In this document: one piece after another, positions 22,123 to 33,042 of the stretch | How the letters are laid out: each line of letters begins with the position of its first letter | How positions within the stretch are numbered: position 1 is the first letter of the stretch | Source: Paenibacillaceae bacterium | GTDB lineage: Bacteria; Bacillota; Bacilli; Paenibacillales; NBRC-103111 | DNA length: 64,000 nt | Direction of reading: 5' to 3' | Assembly (NCBI GenBank): GCA_029256185.1 | Contig: JAQSYI010000017.1 | Coordinates: forward strand, 62,001 to 126,000 | The notes under the pieces: generated by a model | Database searches by the model: none | What the model was told of the DNA's origin: nothing | Seen by the model: only the letters and a program-made list of their open reading frames with translations | Position numbers and translations under genes: made by a program

Positions 22123-25100
22123 TCAGCTCCGGTCAGCGTTAAGCCTGAAGGTAAGCACTTCATACGGGTTGATGCGGAATGCTGCTGCACCGTCTTGAAC
22201 AGAGATGCTGTGTCCAGTGGCTTCTTCCATCAGGTCCGTCTCCGCCAATTTTCCTTGACCCGCTGGCAGGAATGCTCCTTCGCCCAGATGAATAACCCCC
22301 GCTTCGCGGCCGCCTGATGATTCATACAGCCGGAGGATTACTCCCTGGCCGTCCTCTGCCACCTTCAAACTATCCAGCACCGTGCAATTGACGGACAGAC
22401 TGAGGAACGAGCCGGTGGAGGGAAGGCCGCTGTTATGCGCGGAAACCGGCACTGCCACAACGGGATGGTTCAGCTCATAGCCCTCCCGTACTACGCCGGC
22501 AGTGCGCCAGTCTCCCTGATGCGGATAGATGGAATACACAAATTCATGTACGCCCCGGTCACAGGATGCATCCGGCCAGCGCGGCGAACGCAGCAGCGAC
22601 AGCCTCATCACATTGCCCTTGATGTCATAGCCGTACTTGCAATCGTTCAGCAGACTGATTCCGTAACCCCCTTCGGACAGATCGGCCCACCGGTGTCCGC
22701 ACACCTCGAACTGTGCCTGCTCCCAGCTGGTGTTGGTGTGGGTAGGCCGTTCAATACTGCCGAAGGGAATCTCGTAGGTTGCCTTGCTTGCGAGAATCCG
22801 CACGGGAAAAGCCGCCTTCAACAGCTTATGGGTTTCCTGCCAGTCCACCCGTGTCCGGAAATCCACCCGTGCGCTATGGTGGTGCAAGAGAATATCCTGC
22901 TCCACAACGGACTTGCCGAGACGCCATTTCATGCGCAGAATATCCAGGGTTTTGCCGCTGTACGCAACCTCAGAGGCAACAAGCTCTGCCTCCTCCGCAG
23001 GCTGGCTGTCAAACTGGGGATCAATATCCCATGCATCCCATACCGTAGGGCGGTCATGGAACAGCTGCAGATGATTGGCGGCTTGCCCGGGCTCCACTAA
23101 TTCCCGCCCGTTTTCCTTATCCACCCAGCTTGTTATTCTTCCCGCTTCATCGAAGAGCAGCCGCCAGCGGACCGTCTCCCAACTCCCGGTTAAGCGCTCC
23201 GCTTGGGTGGAGCCGTGGTCGGGAGCAGCGCCGTCTTGTGACTTGGGCCGCAGCCATACGGTCTTATACCCCATCGCCGGAACCCCTCCCGTTTTTACAT
23301 GAAGCACATAGGATTGGCCGTTATCCGAGGAAACCAGATCCGATTCCAGCTCCGCTCCCGCTTCATCATATACCGTCATTTCCTCCAGTTCCCGGCCGCC
23401 GCGGATTTCCGCCAGATCCCCCCGCTCCCAGGAGAGACTGTTGAACAGCACCACCGGCTGGCCATGTCCTTCTGTGGATATGTGCCGGACCAGCCGGCTC
23501 AGACCGGTTTGAAGAGCTTCATCCCCGCAAGCAAACACTTCATTATAGTGCTGCTCCGATTTGCTGTACACCTCGCTGATGGAGGTCCCGGGAATGATGT
23601 CGTGAAACTGGTTCAGCAGAAGCAGCTTCCAGCCTTTGGCGAGAGTCTCCCGCTGCAGCTCAGCCGCCTCCTTAAGCTCTGCCGCTCCCGCCAATACGGA
23701 CAGCGCGTTCCAGACCTCCGCCTCCCGGTACAGCACCTCCGCTTTCCGATTAAACCGTTTGTTGCGCCCGTGGGTGGTATAGGTGCCTCTGTGCAGCTCC
23801 AGATACATATCCCCCGTCCACCGTGGCAGCTTGGGAGAAGCTTGGGCAACTCCATCGAAAAATTCATGAGCCGTGCTGAAGCGGCAGGAGGGCAAACCCG
23901 GCAGATTTTCCGAACGTTCCACGTACTCCAGCATTTCCCTGGTTACGCCGCCGCCTCCATCTCCAAACCCATATAACAGCATCTGTTCCGGATGAGCCGT
24001 CTTTTGGCGGAAGCTGTCCCAATGCTCCCCGATATCGGCAGACAGCGTATTTTCATTCAAGCCATGGTTCAGGAAGGAGAGAATGGAGGTTCCGTCAATG
24101 CCGGTCCAATAGAACAGATCATACGGAAACGGATTGGTGTCGTTCCAGTTCATCTTGGAGGTCATGAAATAATCCACTCCGGATTTCTTCAGAAGCTGGG
24201 GCAGGGAGGCGCAATAACCGAAGGTGTCCGGGAGCCATTCCACCCGGGAATTTCTGCCGAACTCCTCCTGATAGAAGCGTCTTCCATACAGCAGTTGTCT
24301 GACCAGCGACTCCCCTGACGGAATGTTGAGGTCCGGCTCCACCCACATGCCACCTACCAGCTCCCAGCGCCCTTCGGCAATCCGCTCCTTGATCTTCATA
24401 TACAACTCGGGGTAATGCTCTTTCACGTACGCATACAGCTGGGGCTGGCTTTGAGAATAGCGGTATTCGGGGTATTGCTCCATCAGCGTGCATACGGTGG
24501 AGAAGGTTCTGCTGCTTTTGCGCACCGTTTCCTTCAGGGGCCACAGCCATGCCAGATCGATATGGGACTGCCCCACCATATGCATGACGGCCCCGCTTAT
24601 TCCCCCGGTGCTCTCGGCAAGCCTGCGGCGGATTTTCTCCTCCGTTTGACTCACGCGGCCGTGGTCAAGCAGAAGCTCCTCCTCGCCACCGGGCAGCTCC
24701 AGCATGGCTTCCTGCAGAATTTGGATCATCCTGATCCGCTCCATATCCCCCTCGGGCAGACGCTTGACCCCCTCCCAACAGACCGTCACCGTGTAATAGA
24801 GACTCTCCACTGCCGTGTTCACCGCAACAAGCCTGGCATCCTGAAAATGGACGGGAGGCGAGACGGCATCCACTTGTCTGTTGAGATGGTCCTCCTGCAA
24901 CGGCGGAACATGATACAGCTCCACCATTACCGAGAACTCCCCGTCAGCCGCCAGCTGTCCGGAGAGGGGGACAAAGCTTCTGTTCTTGTCCAGGCCATGA
25001 TACGGCATGCCATTGACCGAGAGAAGCCCTTCTCCTCCGGCAAGGAAAACCAACCCCGTCTTTTCTTGCTGCCAGCCTGCCGGAACAACCACCCTTTTCT

Positions 25101-25296
25101 CCAAAAACAGCGTCTCTCCAGGCGTACTGTCCAGTCCGTGGGGAGATACCGTCTCCGTACCCTCCTTATGAATATATTCCCCCTCTTCCACATAGACGGC
25201 CCGCCTGCAGGACCAATCGTGAAGCTCTACACTTTCCTTCCACCGGTTGGCATGAAGCTGTTCAATGAAACGTTGGATTCTTTTGGCAAACGCCAT
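22123..25296 (-). CDS. GH38 alpha-mannosidase
   Basis: A 1057-aa zinc-dependent alpha-mannosidase of family 38, cytoplasmic by lack of a signal peptide. After an N-terminal beta domain (about 1-230), the catalytic domain carries zinc ligands His245 and Asp247 (GQSHIDLAWLWP) and the nucleophile Asp357 in EWLPDTFGYC, with WVEPDLNIPSGE between. An antiparallel beta sandwich follows to the C-terminus. The ATG at 25296 has GGAGGA 7 bp upstream; the in-frame TTG at 25311 is less likely. It releases mannose from alpha-mannosides, perhaps from imported yeast mannan or N-glycan fragments. It is divergent from the GntR/LacI repressor at 25647 and shares an operator motif with it. Confidence 0.95.
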   Translation of the reverse strand: MAFAKRIQRFIEQLHANRWKESVELHDWSCRRAVYVEEGEYIHKEGTETVSPHGLDSTPGETLFLEKRVVVPAGWQQEKTGLVFLAGGEGLLSVNGMPYHGLDKNRSFVPLSGQLAADGEFSVMVELYHVPPLQEDHLNRQVDAVSPPVHFQDARLVAVNTAVESLYYTVTVCWEGVKRLPEGDMERIRMIQILQEAMLELPGGEEELLLDHGRVSQTEEKIRRRLAESTGGISGAVMHMVGQSHIDLAWLWPLKETVRKSSRTFSTVCTLMEQYPEYRYSQSQPQLYAYVKEHYPELYMKIKERIAEGRWELVGGMWVEPDLNIPSGESLVRQLLYGRRFYQEEFGRNSRVEWLPDTFGYCASLPQLLKKSGVDYFMTSKMNWNDTNPFPYDLFYWTGIDGTSILSFLNHGLNENTLSADIGEHWDSFRQKTAHPEQMLLYGFGDGGGGVTREMLEYVERSENLPGLPSCRFSTAHEFFDGVAQASPKLPRWTGDMYLELHRGTYTTHGRNKRFNRKAEVLYREAEVWNALSVLAGAAELKEAAELQRETLAKGWKLLLLNQFHDIIPGTSISEVYSKSEQHYNEVFACGDEALQTGLSRLVRHISTEGHGQPVVLFNSLSWERGDLAEIRGGRELEEMTVYDEAGAELESDLVSSDNGQSYVLHVKTGGVPAMGYKTVWLRPKSQDGAAPDHGSTQAERLTGSWETVRWRLLFDEAGRITSWVDKENGRELVEPGQAANHLQLFHDRPTVWDAWDIDPQFDSQPAEEAELVASEVAYSGKTLDILRMKWRLGKSVVEQDILLHHHSARVDFRTRVDWQETHKLLKAAFPVRILASKATYEIPFGSIERPTHTNTSWEQAQFEVCGHRWADLSEGGYGISLLNDCKYGYDIKGNVMRLSLLRSPRWPDASCDRGVHEFVYSIYPHQGDWRTAGVVREGYELNHPVVAVPVSAHNSGLPSTGSFLSLSVNCTVLDSLKVAEDGQGVILRLYESSGGREAGVIHLGEGAFLPAGQGKLAETDLMEEATGHSISVQDGAAAFRINPYEVLTFRLNADRS

Positions 25297-25317
25297 GTCT
25301 GATTCCTCCAATTAAAG

Positions 25318-25334
25318 TTGTATAATTGTATATA
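25318..25334. promoter_or_regulatory. Operator motif in the alpha-mannosidase promoter
   Basis: TTGTATAATTGTATATA matches 16 of 17 bases of the motif at 25597 before the repressor gene. It lies 22-38 bp upstream of the mannosidase ATG, just ahead of the ribosome binding site. A small palindrome ATACA-T-TGTAT (25348-25358) is nearby. Nothing else was recognised in 25359-25596. Confidence 0.65.
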
Positions 25335-25596
25335 TTTAAATTCAATTATACATTGTATTATACATGTTTGAAGACTATCCGTAAACAACCAAGACTGAAC
25401 TCCCAAGGCCGCTCCCTGGCACCGAGAGTCCGGTCAGCAGCCCGGCATTCACCTGAACTTCCTGCAAGAACCGCGGCACATCCTTCCTTTTATCGCAACC
25501 CTTTCTCTGTTGGCTGATCTTCCCGGGTTCATTCATGGGTCTCCGTTCGCCAATCTCTTCTTTGCGGCAGAACTCCTTTACTTTAAGCCGCTTAAC

Positions 25597-25613
25597 TTGT
25601 ATAGTTGTATATA
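25597..25613. promoter_or_regulatory. Operator motif and -10 box before the GntR/LacI regulator
   Basis: TTGTATAGTTGTATATA is the second copy of the shared motif. It overlaps a perfect TATAAT (25610-25615), 32 bp before the regulator ATG, as expected for autorepression. Confidence 0.65.
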
Positions 25614-25646
25614 ATGATCCATTACACTCTGATGCGAGGTAATCCG

Positions 25647-26861
25647 ATGAAACAACCGGCCAAACGAGTTCCCATCTATCTGCAAATTCGCCAATACCTT
25701 ATCGGACAGATCCGCCAAGGATTCTGGAAGGCAGGCGACCGCCTTCCCTCGGAGAATGAACTGGCCCATACCTTTCAGGGAAGCCGGATTACCGTGAAGC
25801 AAGCTCTGACCGCTTTGGTGGAGGAAGGGGCGGTTTACCGGGTTCAGGGCAAGGGAAGTTTTGTGGCGGAAGGTGCAGCGGAGCTGCTTCAGGGGATTAG
25901 CGGCGAAAGCCAGGGCTCCGGCTTACCCCCTTCCGCCCAGTCTGCCCAGTCCGCTTATTCCATCCTGTCCTCCCCCTCCTTGCCCGGCGGCCCCAGCTTG
26001 ATGGAAGCAGGCTTATCCGCACCTCCGCTAATCGCTTTTATCATCCAGAATACATTGGGCTCCATCTGCTCCGATCTGCTTCTGGGCATTGAAGAAGCAG
26101 CCACAGATGGGGGCTGCCGGGTCTTGTTTATGAACGCCCGGGATTCCCGGGAGCGGGAGTCTGCCATGCTGCAGGAGGCGGTCCAAAGCGGCGCCAAAGG
26201 CATTATCTTATTCCCCGTTCATGGAGAAACCTATAACGAGGAGGTGCTTCGTCTGACCATGGAGCATTATCCGATCGTTGTACTGGACCGGTACTTGCGC
26301 GGGGTGGAAACCAACTGCGTCTGCTCGGACAACCATAAGGGCACTTATCTGGCCGTCTCCCATCTGATCGGCAAGGGGCACCGGAGAATCGGCTGCGTCT
26401 CCTCCCCGGTCCTGGGCACCACCTCATTGGAGGACCGGCTCCACGGCTATGAGCAGGCCTTGGCCGATCACGGTATTCCCGTGGACCATGCCGCCATGCT
26501 GTTCAATCCTGCTCCTGAAGCCATCGCCGACTTTCTGCACACCCGGACAGCCCTGACCGCCCTCGTGGCCTTCGACAGTGTGCACGGCGGCATGGTGATG
26601 AAAGCGGCAGAGCAAGCAGGCATCCGGATTCCCGAGGATCTTTCCCTGGTGGCATTCGACGATTATCCGTTCGCAGAATTGTTCAAGGTTCTGCCTACGG
26701 TCATTGTTCAGCCCTTCCGGGAGATCGGGCAAGCAGCCGCACAGCTTCTCATGGAGCTCATCTCCTCCCCCGGGGCAGAGCGCAGACGGGTCACCCTGCC
26801 GGTGCAACTGATTGAGCGAAGCTCAACAGGCCCGCTCCCTACCCGCTCCCGCCGGGAATAG
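25647..26861 (+). CDS. GntR-type repressor with LacI-like sugar-sensing domain (AraR-like)
   Basis: A 404-aa chimeric regulator. Residues 1-70 are a GntR winged helix (IYLQIRQYLIGQI, DRLPSENELA, GKGSF). After a Pro/Ser-rich linker, residues about 125-395 form a LacI/periplasmic-binding fold (LIAFIIQNTLGSICSDLL, GHRRIGCVS, FDSVHGGMVMKAAEQAGIRIPEDL). This architecture is that of the arabinose repressor AraR, but the divergent target here is an alpha-mannosidase, so the effector is more likely mannose or a mannoside. The ATG at 25647 follows CGAGGT with 6-bp spacing; upstream in-frame starts lack a site. The shared operators at 25318 and 25597 are its probable targets. Confidence 0.9.
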   Translation: MKQPAKRVPIYLQIRQYLIGQIRQGFWKAGDRLPSENELAHTFQGSRITVKQALTALVEEGAVYRVQGKGSFVAEGAAELLQGISGESQGSGLPPSAQSAQSAYSILSSPSLPGGPSLMEAGLSAPPLIAFIIQNTLGSICSDLLLGIEEAATDGGCRVLFMNARDSRERESAMLQEAVQSGAKGIILFPVHGETYNEEVLRLTMEHYPIVVLDRYLRGVETNCVCSDNHKGTYLAVSHLIGKGHRRIGCVSSPVLGTTSLEDRLHGYEQALADHGIPVDHAAMLFNPAPEAIADFLHTRTALTALVAFDSVHGGMVMKAAEQAGIRIPEDLSLVAFDDYPFAELFKVLPTVIVQPFREIGQAAAQLLMELISSPGAERRRVTLPVQLIERSSTGPLPTRSRRE

Positions 26862-27557: not shown

Positions 27558-27610
27558 ACGTTGCCAAAGGAGTAACACCTTACGGCGTTCCCGCCCCGCC
27601 TACCTCCTAT

Positions 27611-27799
27611 CGGAAATTTTTTCCGTTATCTCTGCAAATTCATCATTCCTCGCTGTTTTAACGGAAATTTTTTCCGTTATTTCCTCCTGAACTCCCCAAA
27701 ATAGGCATTTCGACCTGGTTTTGAGCGTATTTACGGAAATTTTTTCCGCTAAATCTCCGCAATGACCGAAAAATCTCTTGATAACGGAAATTTTTTCCG
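27611..27799. repeat. Four palindromic repeats spaced 51, 72 and 51 bp
   Basis: The 15-bp near-palindrome CGGAAATTTTTTCCG occurs exactly at 27611, 27662, 27734 and 27785, usually flanked by TAA/TTA. The first and third spacers resemble each other, so the basic unit is about 51 bp. Read on the minus strand in one frame the units spell T-E-K-I-S-V at 17- or 24-residue spacing. All spacings are multiples of three, but no plausible gene is present. This is most of the 436-bp gap 27514-27949. Confidence 0.85.
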
Positions 27800-27906
27800 T
27801 TAGCGCCATCTCCCATGCGAACCTCATCCCATGCGCCCTTTGCTTCCAGCTCCTTCCCCACTTGATCCAGGGAGAAAGAGCTCATGATATACGTTGTGAG
27901 CTGTTC

Positions 27907-27949: not shown

Positions 27950-28618
27950 CTAGAAAAAATGCGGATATTGCTTCGCCATACTGTTTACCTGCTCCAGCAG
28001 GCTGTTGGAGTGCTCCATAACAACCTTGCGCATGGCTTCCACATCACGCCTTCTGGCCGCGGCAACCATTCTTTCATGCTTATCTATACCGGCTTGTTCC
28101 ACGCCGTTCATCTTCCCGTGCAACAACCGGATACGATTATAATGGGAGGCTACCTCTTCAATCGTGAACCAGGAAAGCTCCTGACCGGCAGTCTCAAAGA
28201 TGAGCTGGTGAAACCGGCTGTCCTTGCAGTAAAATTCGAAAAAATGCTTCTTATCCATGTACCTCTTCTGCTTGTTGATCAGTTCCTGCAAGGTATCCGC
28301 CACCAATTCACTGCAGTTGTGGATAAATCCGTCCACCACGGCAGATTCCAACGAAGTACGGATAAACCACTCTTCACGGACCCGCTTCAAGTCAATTTTG
28401 GATACCACCGTTTTGCGTTGGGGATAGATTTCTACCAATCCTGACTGTTGAAGACGGACTACCGCTTCACGGACGGGCGTCCTGCTGACCCCATAGCGCT
28501 CAGAGAGCTTCTGCACGCTAACGTCCATTCCCGGCTCCAATGTCATATTCATGATATCTTCTCTTATCTGATTGTACGTTACGTCGTTAAGTGAATTAGT
28601 ATTATTCATGATCTTCAA
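27950..28618 (-). CDS. GntR/FadR-type regulator (FCD domain)
   Basis: A 222-aa repressor-type regulator. The N-terminal winged helix has KLSERYGVSRTPVREAVVRLQQ (residues about 37-58), and the C-terminal helical FCD ligand domain has the D-x-x-F-H-x-x-I/L signature (DSRFHQLIFETAG) with further His residues. Two starts are possible: TTG 28618 with AGGGA at good distance, or ATG 28609. Either way it overlaps the metallopeptidase gene by 8-17 bp, so it is the last gene of the operon and is probably autoregulated through the TAACATG sites near 32990. Confidence 0.9.
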   Translation of the reverse strand: MKIMNNTNSLNDVTYNQIREDIMNMTLEPGMDVSVQKLSERYGVSRTPVREAVVRLQQSGLVEIYPQRKTVVSKIDLKRVREEWFIRTSLESAVVDGFIHNCSELVADTLQELINKQKRYMDKKHFFEFYCKDSRFHQLIFETAGQELSWFTIEEVASHYNRIRLLHGKMNGVEQAGIDKHERMVAAARRRDVEAMRKVVMEHSNSLLEQVNSMAKQYPHFF

Positions 28619-29315
28619 CTGTTTCCCTACACCTTCCTGAACTCACTCCCAGAACATCACGATATATTTTCTCCGCACTGGAAGAATCGTAGCCATAGTA
28701 CAAGAGAACATCCAGAATAAAAGGAGAGCAGCTCAATTCATTCAGCTCCTGTGTGAATGCCATCGCTCCGATTTCGCTCAAGGTACGTATCGTCGAATAG
28801 TTTTTGTATCCCAGAAAATTCCATAACAGTATTTTTTCTGTCCGCGTGTAAATTTCCTGTTCAAACCTATCTTCGATAAAGTGAAATATTTCATGCCCCA
28901 AGATAGTACTCATTATACCATCTTGCGGAAAAAGTTCAACTAGGACCGGATCCTCCCGTGAGATCAGATCAACTGCCTGGCGCACGGGTTCTTTCATCAC
29001 TATTATGTGATCAGGCGGTGTGTAGCTGGCAAACATAACACGTTTTCCTATCATGGAAGCATCATGAAGCTCAATCTTCAACTCTAACCGCCGGGCAAGC
29101 GCACTTATATCTCTACAGCCGTATTCATGAATGATCCGCTGTGCATATTGTTTGCCGCAGGCTATGGCTTTTGCGATCATCTCTGTTTTTTGGTCCGGCT
29201 GTATACGCTGGTTCAATATATCTCTGGAAAATGCATACTGTCCCCAGGTCTCATCATCCACCTGCAGCAAATGATGAATCATCTCTCTTAAGCGTGATTG
29301 CCCTTGCCCCTGCAT
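28602..29315 (-). CDS. HExxH metallopeptidase-like protein (ImmA/IrrE-like)
   Basis: A 237-aa soluble protein with a zinc-peptidase signature: ILGHEIFHFIED supplies HExxH (two His and the catalytic Glu), and SEIGAMAFTQELN about 40 residues later could give the third ligand, as in the ImmA/IrrE (M78) group. The N-terminal half is helical and unrecognised. The ATG at 29315 has GGAGGAG 2-6 bp upstream and is preferred over the ORF start at 29363, which lacks a site. It lies 52 bp after the hydantoinase and overlaps the GntR gene. Such peptidases often cut repressors; here the neighbour regulator is an FCD protein, not a typical ImmR target, so its role is open. Confidence 0.7.
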   Translation of the reverse strand: MQGQGQSRLREMIHHLLQVDDETWGQYAFSRDILNQRIQPDQKTEMIAKAIACGKQYAQRIIHEYGCRDISALARRLELKIELHDASMIGKRVMFASYTPPDHIIVMKEPVRQAVDLISREDPVLVELFPQDGIMSTILGHEIFHFIEDRFEQEIYTRTEKILLWNFLGYKNYSTIRTLSEIGAMAFTQELNELSCSPFILDVLLYYGYDSSSAEKIYRDVLGVSSGRCRETVEDHE

Positions 29316-29367
29316 AACTCCTCCATTCTCCCGCGAAATGCACCATGAACTGCGGCTCCACAAACTT

Positions 29368-31500
29368 CTAGCTCTGCTTGATATTGGCGGCTACCACAAT
29401 AATTTCGGTTTCCGGCTCAAAGGTTGAAACCTCAATATCCATCAACAGCTCCAGTTGTTCAAAGTCGGATGCCGAGAAATCCATGATCCGGGCGCCCAAG
29501 CACAAATAGAAATCCGGTCTGGCAATAAGCTCCGTTTGGTAAACGGCCATGCTCTCCCACAGCTTCTTAACTGCATCCAGATATTCACCTGCGGTTGTCT
29601 TGATTGCCATACCCCGGCCTCTTTGCACCTTGATGAATCCCTTGGTGTCCAGGATCCGGATGGCACCCGCGTCGCCTGTTTTTTCCACCTTTTCACCGTA
29701 GATGGACACATATTTAGTCTTCTCCAGCAGCTGCGTCTGCTGCATGATAACGCGCATATCATTGGCTGCCAGCTGCCTTAGCTCCTCTTCGCTGCATTCC
29801 TTAAGCAGCTCATTGGTCTTGACTTCCGTGGAGCCGGTAGCAATGGCCGTCACCTTGGAGGTCTGCGGATCAATATCAATGTGGATTTCAATACTTTCCG
29901 GAGTCGCCCCGCTTTGGATGGCCTTGTTCATGGCTTCCATCTTGAGAGCGCTGATCACTTCTTTGGAAGGTGACGGAATGATCCGCTCCACCACGTCCCG
30001 CACCATGGACAGAGCCACGCCGATGGAAGAAATAACTTCCGCATTTTCAGGAATACTATACTTCAATCCCATTTTTTCTGCAAAATATATAATGAGGGAA
30101 GCTGCGCCGCCTCCTACGCCAACCAAGGAAATCTGGTCCTTCTCCAGCTTGTACTTCTCGGCCAGAGACAGAATAACCGGCTCGATCTTGGCATACGCCT
30201 TCTCCATAATTTGCTTGGCGATATCTTCAACTGTCGTTCCGCAATAATCGGCCAATGCTTGCATGGCCTTCTTGGCCGCCTCCACGTTGCCGTAAGAGAA
30301 ATGCTCTTTCTTCACCAGACCGAGCACGTTGGCCGCACAGGAATTGGTGATGGTCACCCGCTCGCCGTTCTCCATCTTAATGGAAACATAGTCTGCCGGA
30401 TCGCCTGGCTTTGGTGAGAAGAACTCTACTTGCGGTCCTTTAATTTTTTGCGGATCGGTAAATACGGAATAATCCAACCCGGCGATATGCGCAGATCTTG
30501 GCCCTACATCCACGATTCCGCTCTTGTTGGCACGAACCATGGAGCCTCCGGCCACACCCAGAACCCGCACGTCAAGTGAATTGACATAAGTCGGATGGCC
30601 GCCCACGATGGAATAATCAATAGCAGGCCGCCCATTCTTAATAACGCCGATATTGGTTGTGGTTCCGCCCACCTCGAAGTACACACCGTTCGATGCTCTC
30701 AGATACATCAAAGAGCCCATAACCGAGGCTGCCGGACCGGAAAGCATGGTGAGCACGGGACGTTTCTTCATCTCGGTGATTTCCATAACCCCGCCGTCGC
30801 CTCTCATAATCATCAGAGGGACATTAACGCCGGCTTCTCTTACGGAGCGTTCCGTTGAATTGGCCGTATCCAGCATCTTGGGAAGAATACTCGCATTAAT
30901 AGCCGCCGTTCTCGTTCTCCGGGTCAGCCCGTACAATTTGGTGATATCCGAAGCCATGGTAGTAGGAATGCCTTTTTTCTCCGCCTCTTTGTACACGATC
31001 TCTTCCGGCTTGCCGTTATCCACACCGAAGGCCATGGAGGGAACCACAACCTGCGCCCCTTGTTTAAGAAGGTCATCGATCACTTCAATCACAGTTGCTT
31101 CGGTCATTTTCTTCACATTAAGAAAGCTGTTATAAATTTTAATCTCTTTATTATTGCCCAAATCGATATTTTGCAATTTCGTCTGTCTTTTGGCAAAAAA
31201 GCCTTCCAAACCGCCCTTGCTCATCCCAATGATGCCAACCTGTGCAATATCTCCTTCAATCAGCGCATTGGTAGCCTGAGTGGTACTGTGCGCAACAAAG
31301 ACGACATCCTCCGCTTTAATGCCATTTTCCTTCAGACAGTTCTGAAAACATTTCACAACACCGGCAGCCACACCTTTGGGATCATCATGTGTGGTCTTTA
31401 CCGAAGATTTGCCGATAATCTCCTGGGTTTCATTGTCGATGGCTACTGCTTTTGTATGTGTTCCTCCTACGTCTATGCCCACTCTAACCGATTTACTCAT
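29368..31500 (-). CDS. HyuA-like hydantoinase/oxoprolinase subunit
   Basis: A 710-aa ATP-dependent ring-opening enzyme of the hydantoinase A / 5-oxoprolinase family. The N-terminus has the phosphate-binding GIDVGGTHTKAVAID and AHSTTQATNALIEGD, then ASDITKLYGLTRRTRTAAINA, and the actin-fold core has MRGDGGVM, SGPAASVMG and YFEVGGTTTNIGV. VGVGGGAASLI follows near residue 470. The last 210 residues are a C-terminal extension that I cannot assign. GGAGGT lies 5 bp before the ATG. In this family the A subunit normally pairs with a HyuB subunit, but none is encoded here. The substrate (hydantoin, oxoproline or another lactam) is unknown. Confidence 0.85.
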   Translation of the reverse strand: MSKSVRVGIDVGGTHTKAVAIDNETQEIIGKSSVKTTHDDPKGVAAGVVKCFQNCLKENGIKAEDVVFVAHSTTQATNALIEGDIAQVGIIGMSKGGLEGFFAKRQTKLQNIDLGNNKEIKIYNSFLNVKKMTEATVIEVIDDLLKQGAQVVVPSMAFGVDNGKPEEIVYKEAEKKGIPTTMASDITKLYGLTRRTRTAAINASILPKMLDTANSTERSVREAGVNVPLMIMRGDGGVMEITEMKKRPVLTMLSGPAASVMGSLMYLRASNGVYFEVGGTTTNIGVIKNGRPAIDYSIVGGHPTYVNSLDVRVLGVAGGSMVRANKSGIVDVGPRSAHIAGLDYSVFTDPQKIKGPQVEFFSPKPGDPADYVSIKMENGERVTITNSCAANVLGLVKKEHFSYGNVEAAKKAMQALADYCGTTVEDIAKQIMEKAYAKIEPVILSLAEKYKLEKDQISLVGVGGGAASLIIYFAEKMGLKYSIPENAEVISSIGVALSMVRDVVERIIPSPSKEVISALKMEAMNKAIQSGATPESIEIHIDIDPQTSKVTAIATGSTEVKTNELLKECSEEELRQLAANDMRVIMQQTQLLEKTKYVSIYGEKVEKTGDAGAIRILDTKGFIKVQRGRGMAIKTTAGEYLDAVKKLWESMAVYQTELIARPDFYLCLGARIMDFSASDFEQLELLMDIEVSTFEPETEIIVVAANIKQS

Positions 31501-31538
31501 GTTCTACCTCCGATTCATGTACTGAAAAGTTTGAATAA

Positions 31539-31566
31539 CCGGCTCTTGACACAAGTGAAGAGCCGG
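31539..31566 (-). other. Intercistronic hairpin between transporter and hydantoinase
   Basis: CCGGCTCTT pairs perfectly with AAGAGCCGG around a 10-nt loop. On the minus strand it is followed by a T-rich but interrupted stretch. It could be a leaky terminator or a stabiliser that sets the transporter-to-enzyme ratio. Confidence 0.55.
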
Positions 31567-31580
31567 TCCGGTATTTTCTT

Positions 31581-32930
31581 CTAAACCAAGTTGCCGTACA
31601 TGACGAATACCACGATGCAGAGGATCACACCGATGATCCATCCTGTAGGAATAGACATCTTCATATAATCTCTCGCCGGTACCTTGGTATATCCAAAGCC
31701 CCAGGCAACCCATGATTGTGTAACGTCCAAATGCTGAGGCGCAACAGTTGTAATCGCGAACAAGGGATACAGGAACTGTACGGGCCATGCCGCTGTGGAA
31801 ACCACCACAGCCAGGATGGCCGATCCGGAGCCCACCAGATTCATCGGTCCACGGAAGAAGCCCAGCGGTGTCAGGAGTGCGAATACGATACACAGCATGA
31901 TCGCCGTTGTAGGCATTACCCCGTCAAGCAAGGTTTTGAAATACGGAGAAGCATATGTTGCCGCATTATTGAACATGGACAAGGTCAGCAAGAAGCCGAT
32001 CATGGGCGCCACGTCAATAGCTCCATCAGAAAACTGCTTGGATAACATTCTGCATACTGCAGAAAAACCGCCCTTTAATTTTCCGCATGTCACTAAAGCA
32101 AACAAAGCTGAGAAGATGAACCCGAAAATAATCGGAACTTTGAAGACAACAACGCCGATTACCGGCAGTATGATGGAAATCCAAGAAATCGCAGGCGCAT
32201 CTCCTGTATTTCCTCCGTCGGCGGTCGCCGCCCAGGCACGGGAGAGCTTCTTCTTATTCATGAAGAGATTGGATACAACCAGCACAACAAGCAAGGAAAC
32301 CGCCATGGCGATTATGCCAAAGTTAAAGTATGCGTTGTAATCGTAGCTGGCATAGCTTTTCTCGGCAGTGGCGAAAATAGCCTGATATTGTTTAAAGTTA
32401 ACGATATTGCCGAAGATACCGGCCATAATGGACCCCATGAAGGAGAACAGGGCGATGGGGGATGGGATTCCCAGTGAAAGCATGATAGGCAATACGATAA
32501 CGGCGATGGAGATAACCGGTCCGATCCCTGTCATGGAGGTAAAGATAACCGCTGTAACCACACATAGAAGCGACATGGTCACTCTTGGTTTATCTCCGCC
32601 AAGCTCTACCACCTTGCGGATCAGAGTTGCCGCAATGCCGGTGTCAATTAAAACCCTTCCAAAAAAAGCCCCGAAGAAAATGTTAACCAGAATCGCTCTG
32701 CCGTAGTTTTCCGGACCGGTCTGGAAGACGTTCGTCAATACATCAATCAACGATTTGCCTTCCATAACAGAGGTCGGTGAGATGGAATTGCCGATCAAAG
32801 CAATTGTTGTCCATAACACTGACATCACAAAAAAACCGACCATCAGGTTGTACCCCTTGACGCAGTACCACACCAGTCCAAAAAATGACAGAATCATGAT
32901 GAAACCGATTACAACATTAGTAACATCCAC
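31581..32930 (-). CDS. Multi-span permease of the ion-transporter (CitM/GntP-like) type
   Basis: A 449-aa integral membrane protein with about 11-12 hydrophobic spans. A small-residue loop SMTGIGPVISIAVIVLP and a repeat-like FSFMGSIMAGIFGN suggest an IT-superfamily secondary carrier (citrate, gluconate or dicarboxylate type); the exact family is not certain. The start is GTG 32930 with AGGGAGGG 6 bp upstream, not the ORF start at 32987. It is the first gene of the operon with the hydantoinase, metallopeptidase and GntR regulator, so it probably imports the hydantoinase substrate or exports the product. Confidence 0.8.
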   Translation of the reverse strand: MDVTNVVIGFIMILSFFGLVWYCVKGYNLMVGFFVMSVLWTTIALIGNSISPTSVMEGKSLIDVLTNVFQTGPENYGRAILVNIFFGAFFGRVLIDTGIAATLIRKVVELGGDKPRVTMSLLCVVTAVIFTSMTGIGPVISIAVIVLPIMLSLGIPSPIALFSFMGSIMAGIFGNIVNFKQYQAIFATAEKSYASYDYNAYFNFGIIAMAVSLLVVLVVSNLFMNKKKLSRAWAATADGGNTGDAPAISWISIILPVIGVVVFKVPIIFGFIFSALFALVTCGKLKGGFSAVCRMLSKQFSDGAIDVAPMIGFLLTLSMFNNAATYASPYFKTLLDGVMPTTAIMLCIVFALLTPLGFFRGPMNLVGSGSAILAVVVSTAAWPVQFLYPLFAITTVAPQHLDVTQSWVAWGFGYTKVPARDYMKMSIPTGWIIGVILCIVVFVMYGNLV

Positions 32931-32967
32931 AAAATACCCTCCCTGAATAGGATAAAATACCGGCGAA

Positions 32968-33024
32968 CTAACATGCCAATCTACCACACTAACATGTTAG
33001 TCATCCCAGTGAAATATTAACATG
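32968..33024. promoter_or_regulatory. Three TAACATG operator sites, one a perfect palindrome
   Basis: TAACATG occurs at 32969, 32990 and 33018 (21 and 28 bp apart). The middle one is the perfect 12-bp palindrome CTAACATGTTAG (32989-33000). The third overlaps the -10 box, and the others lie in the early transcribed leader. These are the most likely binding sites of the GntR/FCD regulator at the end of the operon. Confidence 0.65.
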
Positions 33025-33042
33025 CCTGTTGCAGCACGTCAA
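33014..33042 (-). promoter_or_regulatory. Sigma-A promoter of the transporter-hydantoinase operon
   Basis: On the minus strand TTGACG, exactly 17 bp, TAATAT, about 85 bp before the GTG start of the permease. Each box has one mismatch to consensus. The 354-bp gap 32931-33284 holds this promoter, the operators and the terminator at 33213. Confidence 0.8.

Follow-up and report, generated by a model that had tools for sequence, protein, structure and literature searches.

To our knowledge, the HyuA-type subunits understood so far all work with HyuB. IrrE and ImmA are repressor-cleaving peptidases, and FCD regulators are normally released by their ligand. In the caprolactamase CapAB, the A subunit phosphorylates and the metal site of the B subunit hydrolyses (PMC8453981). 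Here we describe an operon on the minus strand of a 64,000-nucleotide stretch of the genome of a Paenibacillaceae bacterium (assembly GCA_029256185.1, contig JAQSYI010000017.1, positions 62,001 to 126,000; hereafter the window). It encodes a transporter (TRA), a HyuA-like ASKHA protein (HYU), an HExxH protein (PEP) and a GntR regulator with an FCD domain. TRA, HYU and PEP genes occur together on the same strand in dozens of genomes, many of them distant, which is far beyond chance. Below, L and G numbers designate the loci and genomes that were compared.

A HyuA homolog found without HyuB

HYU is a HyuA homolog judged by its Pfam matches (Hydant_A_N, 3e-19, and Hydantoinase_A, 1e-64, both above cut-off). 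HyuB (PF02538), the partner subunit with an Asp-His-Asp-His metal site, was detected neither in the whole genome that carries the window nor in 24 of the 25 other HYU-bearing genomes, the one occurrence being in G504; control genomes in the same search were positive as expected. The absence of HyuB is general among HYU-bearing genomes. The initial annotation of this DNA had described a HyuA without HyuB and had set its operon apart from those known for hydantoin, oxoproline or acetophenone carboxylase. Both descriptions hold, and no HyuB was found elsewhere.

Conservation of the gene set

Relatives were taken from whole genomes, named genomes and plasmids. At the 59 loci in which HYU is uncut by a contig end, TRA is near HYU in 57 and PEP in 54, across at least four phyla; these counts are of loci, near relatives included, and are not independent events. 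TRA is missing at L091 and at L121, a diverged Deinococcus copy, and the same two loci are exceptions for PEP together with L104, L107 and L117. In an even sample of the phylum (398 genomes), HYU was detected in 22 genomes (E < 1e-150) and PEP in 18, all of which also have HYU, and two of the four HYU-only genomes (G274 and G492) carry a diverged PEP near HYU. Window PEP gave no matches when used as a tblastn query against plasmids; the haloarchaeal and Streptomyces PEP were detected by profile only.

The complete order TRA-HYU-PEP-GntR recurs in a second genome from the same genus, in six from the same taxonomic order and in three of Lacrimispora type. Synergistota, Tissierellia-like genomes and an Enterococcus-like contig (L124) have TRA-HYU-PEP without an adjacent GntR gene. 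A second branch, which includes L046-L052, shows the order FAD oxidoreductase-TRA-HYU-PEP-RpiR, haloarchaeal plasmids carry TRA-HYU-PEP with an FAD oxidoreductase and an IclR regulator, and the order is HYU-PEP-TRA on a Streptomyces plasmid. The mirror-tree correlation, not corrected for shared ancestry, is higher for TRA-HYU (r 0.92) than for HYU-PEP (0.65).

Some loci carry altered versions of the module. In G447 (L091, 3668-8585), HYU is intact, whereas TRA has been lost and PEP carries a frameshift. Its relative G576 retains the three genes, and L091 is a natural case of joint decay. On Enterococcus faecium plasmids (L122, 8001-8732; plasmid hits H9-H15; seven records), HYU is shortened to about 193-244 residues. 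The one such plasmid examined has an apparently intact carrier gene and no PEP, and this version is a decayed copy of the module. In one Synergistota genome (L114, 7481-8665), a transposase-like open reading frame separates HYU from PEP, both being recognisable and HYU having one in-frame TAG. In Deinococcus (L121, 6787-10052), a diverged HYU lies behind an FTR1 iron permease gene in place of TRA, without PEP, which suggests a possible reuse of the fold alongside a different carrier. Finally, L124 (OR848123.1, titled 'Listeria phage LM 4-14-1') holds infC-rpmI-rplT-like genes, TRA-HYU-PEP, a permease gene and a phosphoribosyltransferase-like gene, and probably stems from an Enterococcus-like bacterium whose DNA ended up in a wastewater phage assembly, not from a phage.

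HYU keeps the HyuA-type fold with altered motifs and a replaced end domain

The predicted model of HYU (mean predicted local distance difference test score, pLDDT, 84) matches best the acetone carboxylase beta subunit (5svc, Z 32.3 over 515 residues), followed by the acetophenone carboxylase alpha subunit (5l9w, Z 22.6), CapA (6yra, Z 18.0) and N-methylhydantoinase (9h03, Z 17.8). These HyuA-type structures align with the model to about residue 567-580, and the Pfam model stops at residue 501. A 210-residue C-terminal extension had been proposed for HYU. However, its 710 residues compare with 658-732 for the stand-alone A subunits of solved relatives, and this ordinary length, together with a structural match to about residue 570, indicates that no such extension was added. 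The family-specific part amounts to about 135 residues (about 575-710) and is a replaced end domain. Conservation is lower here than anywhere else in HYU (top-residue frequencies average 0.42, vs 0.56-0.77 in the rest), with four columns at 90% (A579, G621, P662 and E690) and no conserved His/Asp/Cys metal-ligand set in the alignment; a profile of the last 145 residues returned nothing below E 0.2 from the PDB sequences. The idea that this part replaces the B subunit was rejected on account of its small size, its lowest conservation and its lack of conserved metal ligands.

CapA requires Asp11 and Asp295, which belong to its two phosphate motifs, and the site is lined by Asp18 and Asp302 (PMC8453981). 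The first phosphate motif (P1) of HYU, D10-VGGT, is retained in all 38 aligned rows that reach it. The last Asp of the full pattern, DxGGTxTD, is present in the majority of second-branch members and is a Lys in the window's branch and a His in L105, L106 and L108. The second motif (P2) reads E276-VGGT, Glu276 replacing CapA Asp295 in 40 of 40 aligned sequences, and the adenosine motif GxxPGP is missing, a VGPRSAHIAG-type stretch standing at its position. In the window's branch, CapA Asp18 corresponds to Lys and Asp302 to Asn, whereas both Asp persist across most of the second branch. In a quick tree, in which two outgroup rows are fragments, canonical HyuA is separated from HYU by a branch of length 9. 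Taken together, HYU is a distinct family related to HyuA, and it likely retains ATP binding. Its designation as an ATP-dependent amidase is unsupported, given the Glu in P2, the altered adenosine motif and the two further Asp lost in the window's branch.

PEP resembles IrrE-type peptidases and evolves rapidly

Searches of the PEP sequence against Pfam, NCBIfam, PHROGs and the PDB assigned no family, and none of the 17 members scanned matched Pfam M78 (PF06114), the best relative, a haloarchaeal one, reaching E 0.003 (17.8 bits vs a cut-off of 22). The predicted model of PEP (mean pLDDT 89) is nearest to IrrE/PprI (3dte, Z 9.7, root-mean-square deviation 2.7 over 113 residues; 8sln, Z 9.4; 8slm, Z 9.2), then to a Mycobacterium regulator (6d2s, Z 7.5) and to minigluzincins (Z 4-5); with Foldseek alone, the best match was not significant (E 0.17). 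Only five residues are invariant in 42 sequences, namely H157, E158, H161, E197 and F203. The HExxH site is among them, and this HExxH...E set and the fold match are consistent with the initial annotation of PEP as an ImmA/IrrE-like zinc peptidase. Hydropathy indicates a soluble protein with no transmembrane segment.

The ratio of nonsynonymous to synonymous substitution rates (dN/dS) between two genomes of the genus is 0.17 for PEP, 0.026 for HYU, 0.041 for TRA and 0.050 for GntR; with dS close to or exceeding 1, these values are rough. At the protein level, PEP changes 6-7 times faster than HYU, and it is still under purifying selection. Two nearly complete genomes that keep TRA-HYU (G226 and G512) have no PEP. 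Their HYU proteins group with that of Selenomonas pSRC1 in a single clade that lies within PEP-bearing ones (support 100, quick tree), which indicates a single loss of PEP with TRA-HYU retained. This pattern of loss and fast evolution agrees better with an accessory protease than with a catalytic subunit. No signal of co-evolution between PEP and the C-terminal domain of HYU was seen beyond that with the HYU core (partial r 0.07).

The regulators that adjoin the module are of the GntR/FCD, GntR/UTRA, RpiR, ROK or IclR type, several lineages have none, and no pairing with an XRE-type repressor was observed. PEP tracks HYU and not the regulator type. Since the regulator varies in family or is missing where PEP persists, it is unlikely that PEP is a regulator-cleaving peptidase of the ImmA/IrrE kind. 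The regulator, one of the targets first proposed for it, is thus disfavoured, and the enzyme, the transporter or the substrate are still candidates.

TRA and neighbouring pathway genes

Window TRA has no Pfam or NCBIfam match. Its relatives match CitMHS (best 1.2e-6), DcuC and DcuC_1 (best 3.8e-12; 7 of 12 members), all below the curated cut-off, and the haloarchaeal ones are annotated 'citrate transporter'. From these similarities, TRA is most likely a carboxylate carrier of the IT superfamily (CitMHS/DcuC-like).

Sugar-acid metabolism is the commonest theme among the neighbours, with genes that differ by lineage. L110 has a 3-dehydro-L-gulonate 2-dehydrogenase (over cut-off), a YiaL-type DUF386 protein and a cyclase; L088 has a KDPG aldolase, a 6-phospho-3-hexuloisomerase, an HPS/KGPDC-type (OMPdecase-family) protein and a KdgT-like permease; L105 has a KDG-type kinase. 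FAD_oxidored adjoins the module in the second branch and in haloarchaea. Deducing one substrate from the neighbours was abandoned because NagA-like, cysteate-racemase and amidohydrolase genes occur as well.

Two further neighbours were recorded. A probable TIM barrel of about 225 residues recurs beside the module (L083, 1616-2290; L085, L086, L105, L106, L108 and L109); it belongs to no Pfam or NCBIfam family and weakly matches thiamine phosphate pyrophosphorylase. A DUF4127 protein is encoded between HYU and the FAD oxidoreductase in L106 (10883-12379).

Operon organization and candidate operator

The features from 33042 down to 27908 form a single operon that runs from promoter and operator through the four genes to a terminator (Table 1); the four genes lie where the initial annotation had placed them, all on the minus strand. 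The promoter scan is weak when taken alone (11 matches in the region vs 7.2 expected); the -35 box begins at position 33042, at which the initial annotation had closed the region. For TRA, the mechanical open reading frame starts at 32987, and we prefer the GTG at 32930, which is preceded by GGAGGG and agrees with relatives. The GntR protein matches Pfam GntR (3e-16) and FCD (7e-16), both above cut-off.

Table 1. Features of the TRA-HYU-PEP-GntR operon in the window
Feature	Coordinates	Strand	Basis
Sigma-A-type promoter, TTGACG-17 nt-TAATAT	33014..33042	-	Consensus match 9/12, directly before operator
Perfect palindrome ACTAACATGTTAGT, probable GntR operator	32988..33001	-	Further CATGTTAG half-sites alongside
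TRA, membrane carrier, ~449 aa	31581..32930	-	Weak family matches of relatives; nine hydrophobic segments
GC-rich RNA hairpin between TRA and HYU	31530..31569	-	-24.3 kcal/mol for 80 nt, z -3.3
HYU, HyuA-like ASKHA protein, 710 aa	29368..31500	-	Pfam, structure prediction, alignment
PEP, IrrE-like gluzincin, 253 aa, H157-E158-x-x-H161 + E197	28602..29363	-	Alignment, model, hydropathy
GntR regulator with FCD domain, 222 aa	27950..28618	-	Start overlaps PEP end by 17 nt
Terminator-like hairpin after GntR stop codon	27908..27942	-	12 pairs + U-run, z -4.8

The 12-bp core of the palindrome ACTAACATGTTAGT has a single match in the window, where 0.04 are expected with one mismatch allowed. The identical palindrome lies upstream of TRA in L039 and L045; before the same gene, L040-L044 have a form with one base changed, ACTAACATGTCAGT, and the Lacrimispora-type loci L031 and L032 have TACTAATATATTAGTA. 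In the window, the palindrome begins 12 bases past the -10 box, a location suited to repression, and it is probably a GntR operator. Stems comparable to the hairpin in the TRA-HYU gap are present in L039, L045 and L084.

Past the terminator, positions 27608-27806 hold four copies of the palindrome AACGGAAATTTTTTCCGTTA at spacings of 51, 72 and 51 nt. It occurs 391 times in the genome (at most 2 mismatches) vs 0 for the reversed control, often at spacings of 51, 72 or 123 nt, and is a repetitive extragenic palindromic (REP)-like intergenic element. Further on, at 22123-26861, the sequence alone indicates two genes that are not part of the module, one on the minus strand for an alpha-mannosidase-like protein of 1062 aa and one on the plus strand for a regulator of GntR/LacI type (418 aa).

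A tentative model and its alternatives

The explanation that we favour, to which we give slightly less than even weight, is that TRA-HYU-PEP is a conserved three-gene core that takes up a small carboxylated substrate and activates it at the expense of ATP, with PEP as an accessory and GntR as repressor. It rests on the co-occurrence of TRA and PEP with HYU, the absence of HyuB, and the HyuA-type fold with D10-VGGT and E276-VGGT. TRA would import a carboxylate, as suggested by the CitMHS/DcuC matches of its relatives and the frequent sugar-acid enzymes nearby. HYU, descended from the phosphorylating A subunit of hydantoinase and ketone-carboxylase enzymes, would act without HyuB and could pass phosphate to a carbonyl/enol or a hydroxyl of the substrate, and lineage-specific pathway enzymes would complete the conversion. 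PEP would be a cytosolic IrrE-like zinc protease with an accessory role, most likely through limited proteolysis of HYU or TRA or through their turnover; its fast evolution, its five invariant residues and its one loss in a well-supported clade point to such a role. The operator conserved before TRA suggests that GntR/FCD may repress the window operon via ACTAACATGTTAGT until the substrate releases it. Several points weigh against this model. The variable pathway enzymes agree poorly with one shared chemistry, and TRA never exceeds a curated cut-off. In addition, the window and L124 operons hold no other enzyme, so that HYU and PEP alone would need to feed central metabolism.

Possible, though doubtful, is that carrier, HyuA-derived ASKHA ATPase and zincin form a new machine, devoted either to ATP-assisted uptake or to a HyuA-zincin enzyme in which the IrrE fold replaces HyuB hydrolysis. 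The replacement of HyuB by PEP, when considered in its own right, is unlikely. HYU would phosphorylate a lactam-like substrate and the zinc site of PEP would open the ring, making a new two-subunit ATP-dependent hydrolase. The division of labour in CapAB (PMC8453981), the zinc-type site of PEP and its place directly after HYU in most loci agree with such an enzyme. On the other hand, PEP has five invariant residues where HYU has dozens, nearly complete genomes keep TRA-HYU without it, it lies 1.3-3.6 kb from HYU in L105, L106, L108, L090 and L088, and HYU-PEP correlate less in the mirror-tree than TRA-HYU.

A signalling role, in which PEP would be an ImmA/IrrE-type protease that cuts a local transcription factor when the substrate is present, is distinctly unlikely. 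The IrrE-like fold, the overlap with the GntR gene in the window and the adjoining RpiR regulator in the L046-L052 branch are in line with it, but the adjoining regulators span five types, no regulator adjoins PEP in the Synergistota, Tissierellia and Enterococcus-like loci, and an FCD regulator would normally be released by ligand. It is still more improbable that HYU is the ATPase partner of the carrier, as ArsA is with ArsB, and TRA an ATP-assisted transporter. TRA-HYU is indeed the most constant and most tightly co-evolving pair, and the pathway enzymes vary; however, characterised HyuA relatives are enzymes and not transport ATPases, no membrane-binding feature was seen in HYU by hydropathy, and transporters and enzymes of the same pathway co-evolve too. 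Finally, an ordinary hydantoinase or oxoprolinase operon with HyuB encoded elsewhere, to which the Pfam homology of HYU might point, is barely credible in view of the nearly general lack of HyuB and the very long branch between HYU and canonical HyuA.

The occurrence of a HyuB-free family across bacteria and archaea, nearly always beside a carrier and a zincin, suggests a second mode of action for this ATP-using fold. It would extend IrrE-like peptidases from the control of DNA damage and mobile elements towards catabolic operons, and annotations of HYU genes as 'hydantoinase/oxoprolinase family protein' are probably wrong on chemistry. The gene set suggests a novel route for the uptake and activation of small acids in many bacteria and salt-loving archaea.

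Comparison with known systems

All of the parts can be placed in, or likened to, known superfamilies. For their combination, and for a HyuA family without HyuB, no known counterpart was found. No publication on the module was found in the open-licence literature (hydantoinase with ImmA/IrrE, HyuA family, DUF4127, gene cluster). TRA relatives match the profiles of CitMHS and DcuC carriers weakly, none above the curated cut-off. HYU residues 1-570 have in common with CapAB, N-methylhydantoinase and 5-oxoprolinase the A-subunit fold and the glycine-rich DxGGT part of phosphate motif P1; unlike these enzymes, HYU comes without HyuB, has Glu in P2, lacks GxxPGP and differs in its last ~135 residues. 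The acetone and acetophenone carboxylase subunits AcxB and ApcA are its best structural matches (5svc and 5l9w), but neither HyuB-type or small partner subunits nor ketone pathway genes lie near HYU. PEP, without a PF06114 match above cut-off, has the HExxH motif, the downstream Glu and the fold of IrrE/PprI and ImmA (COG2856, M78), but its partners are a HyuA-like protein and a carrier in place of an XRE repressor.

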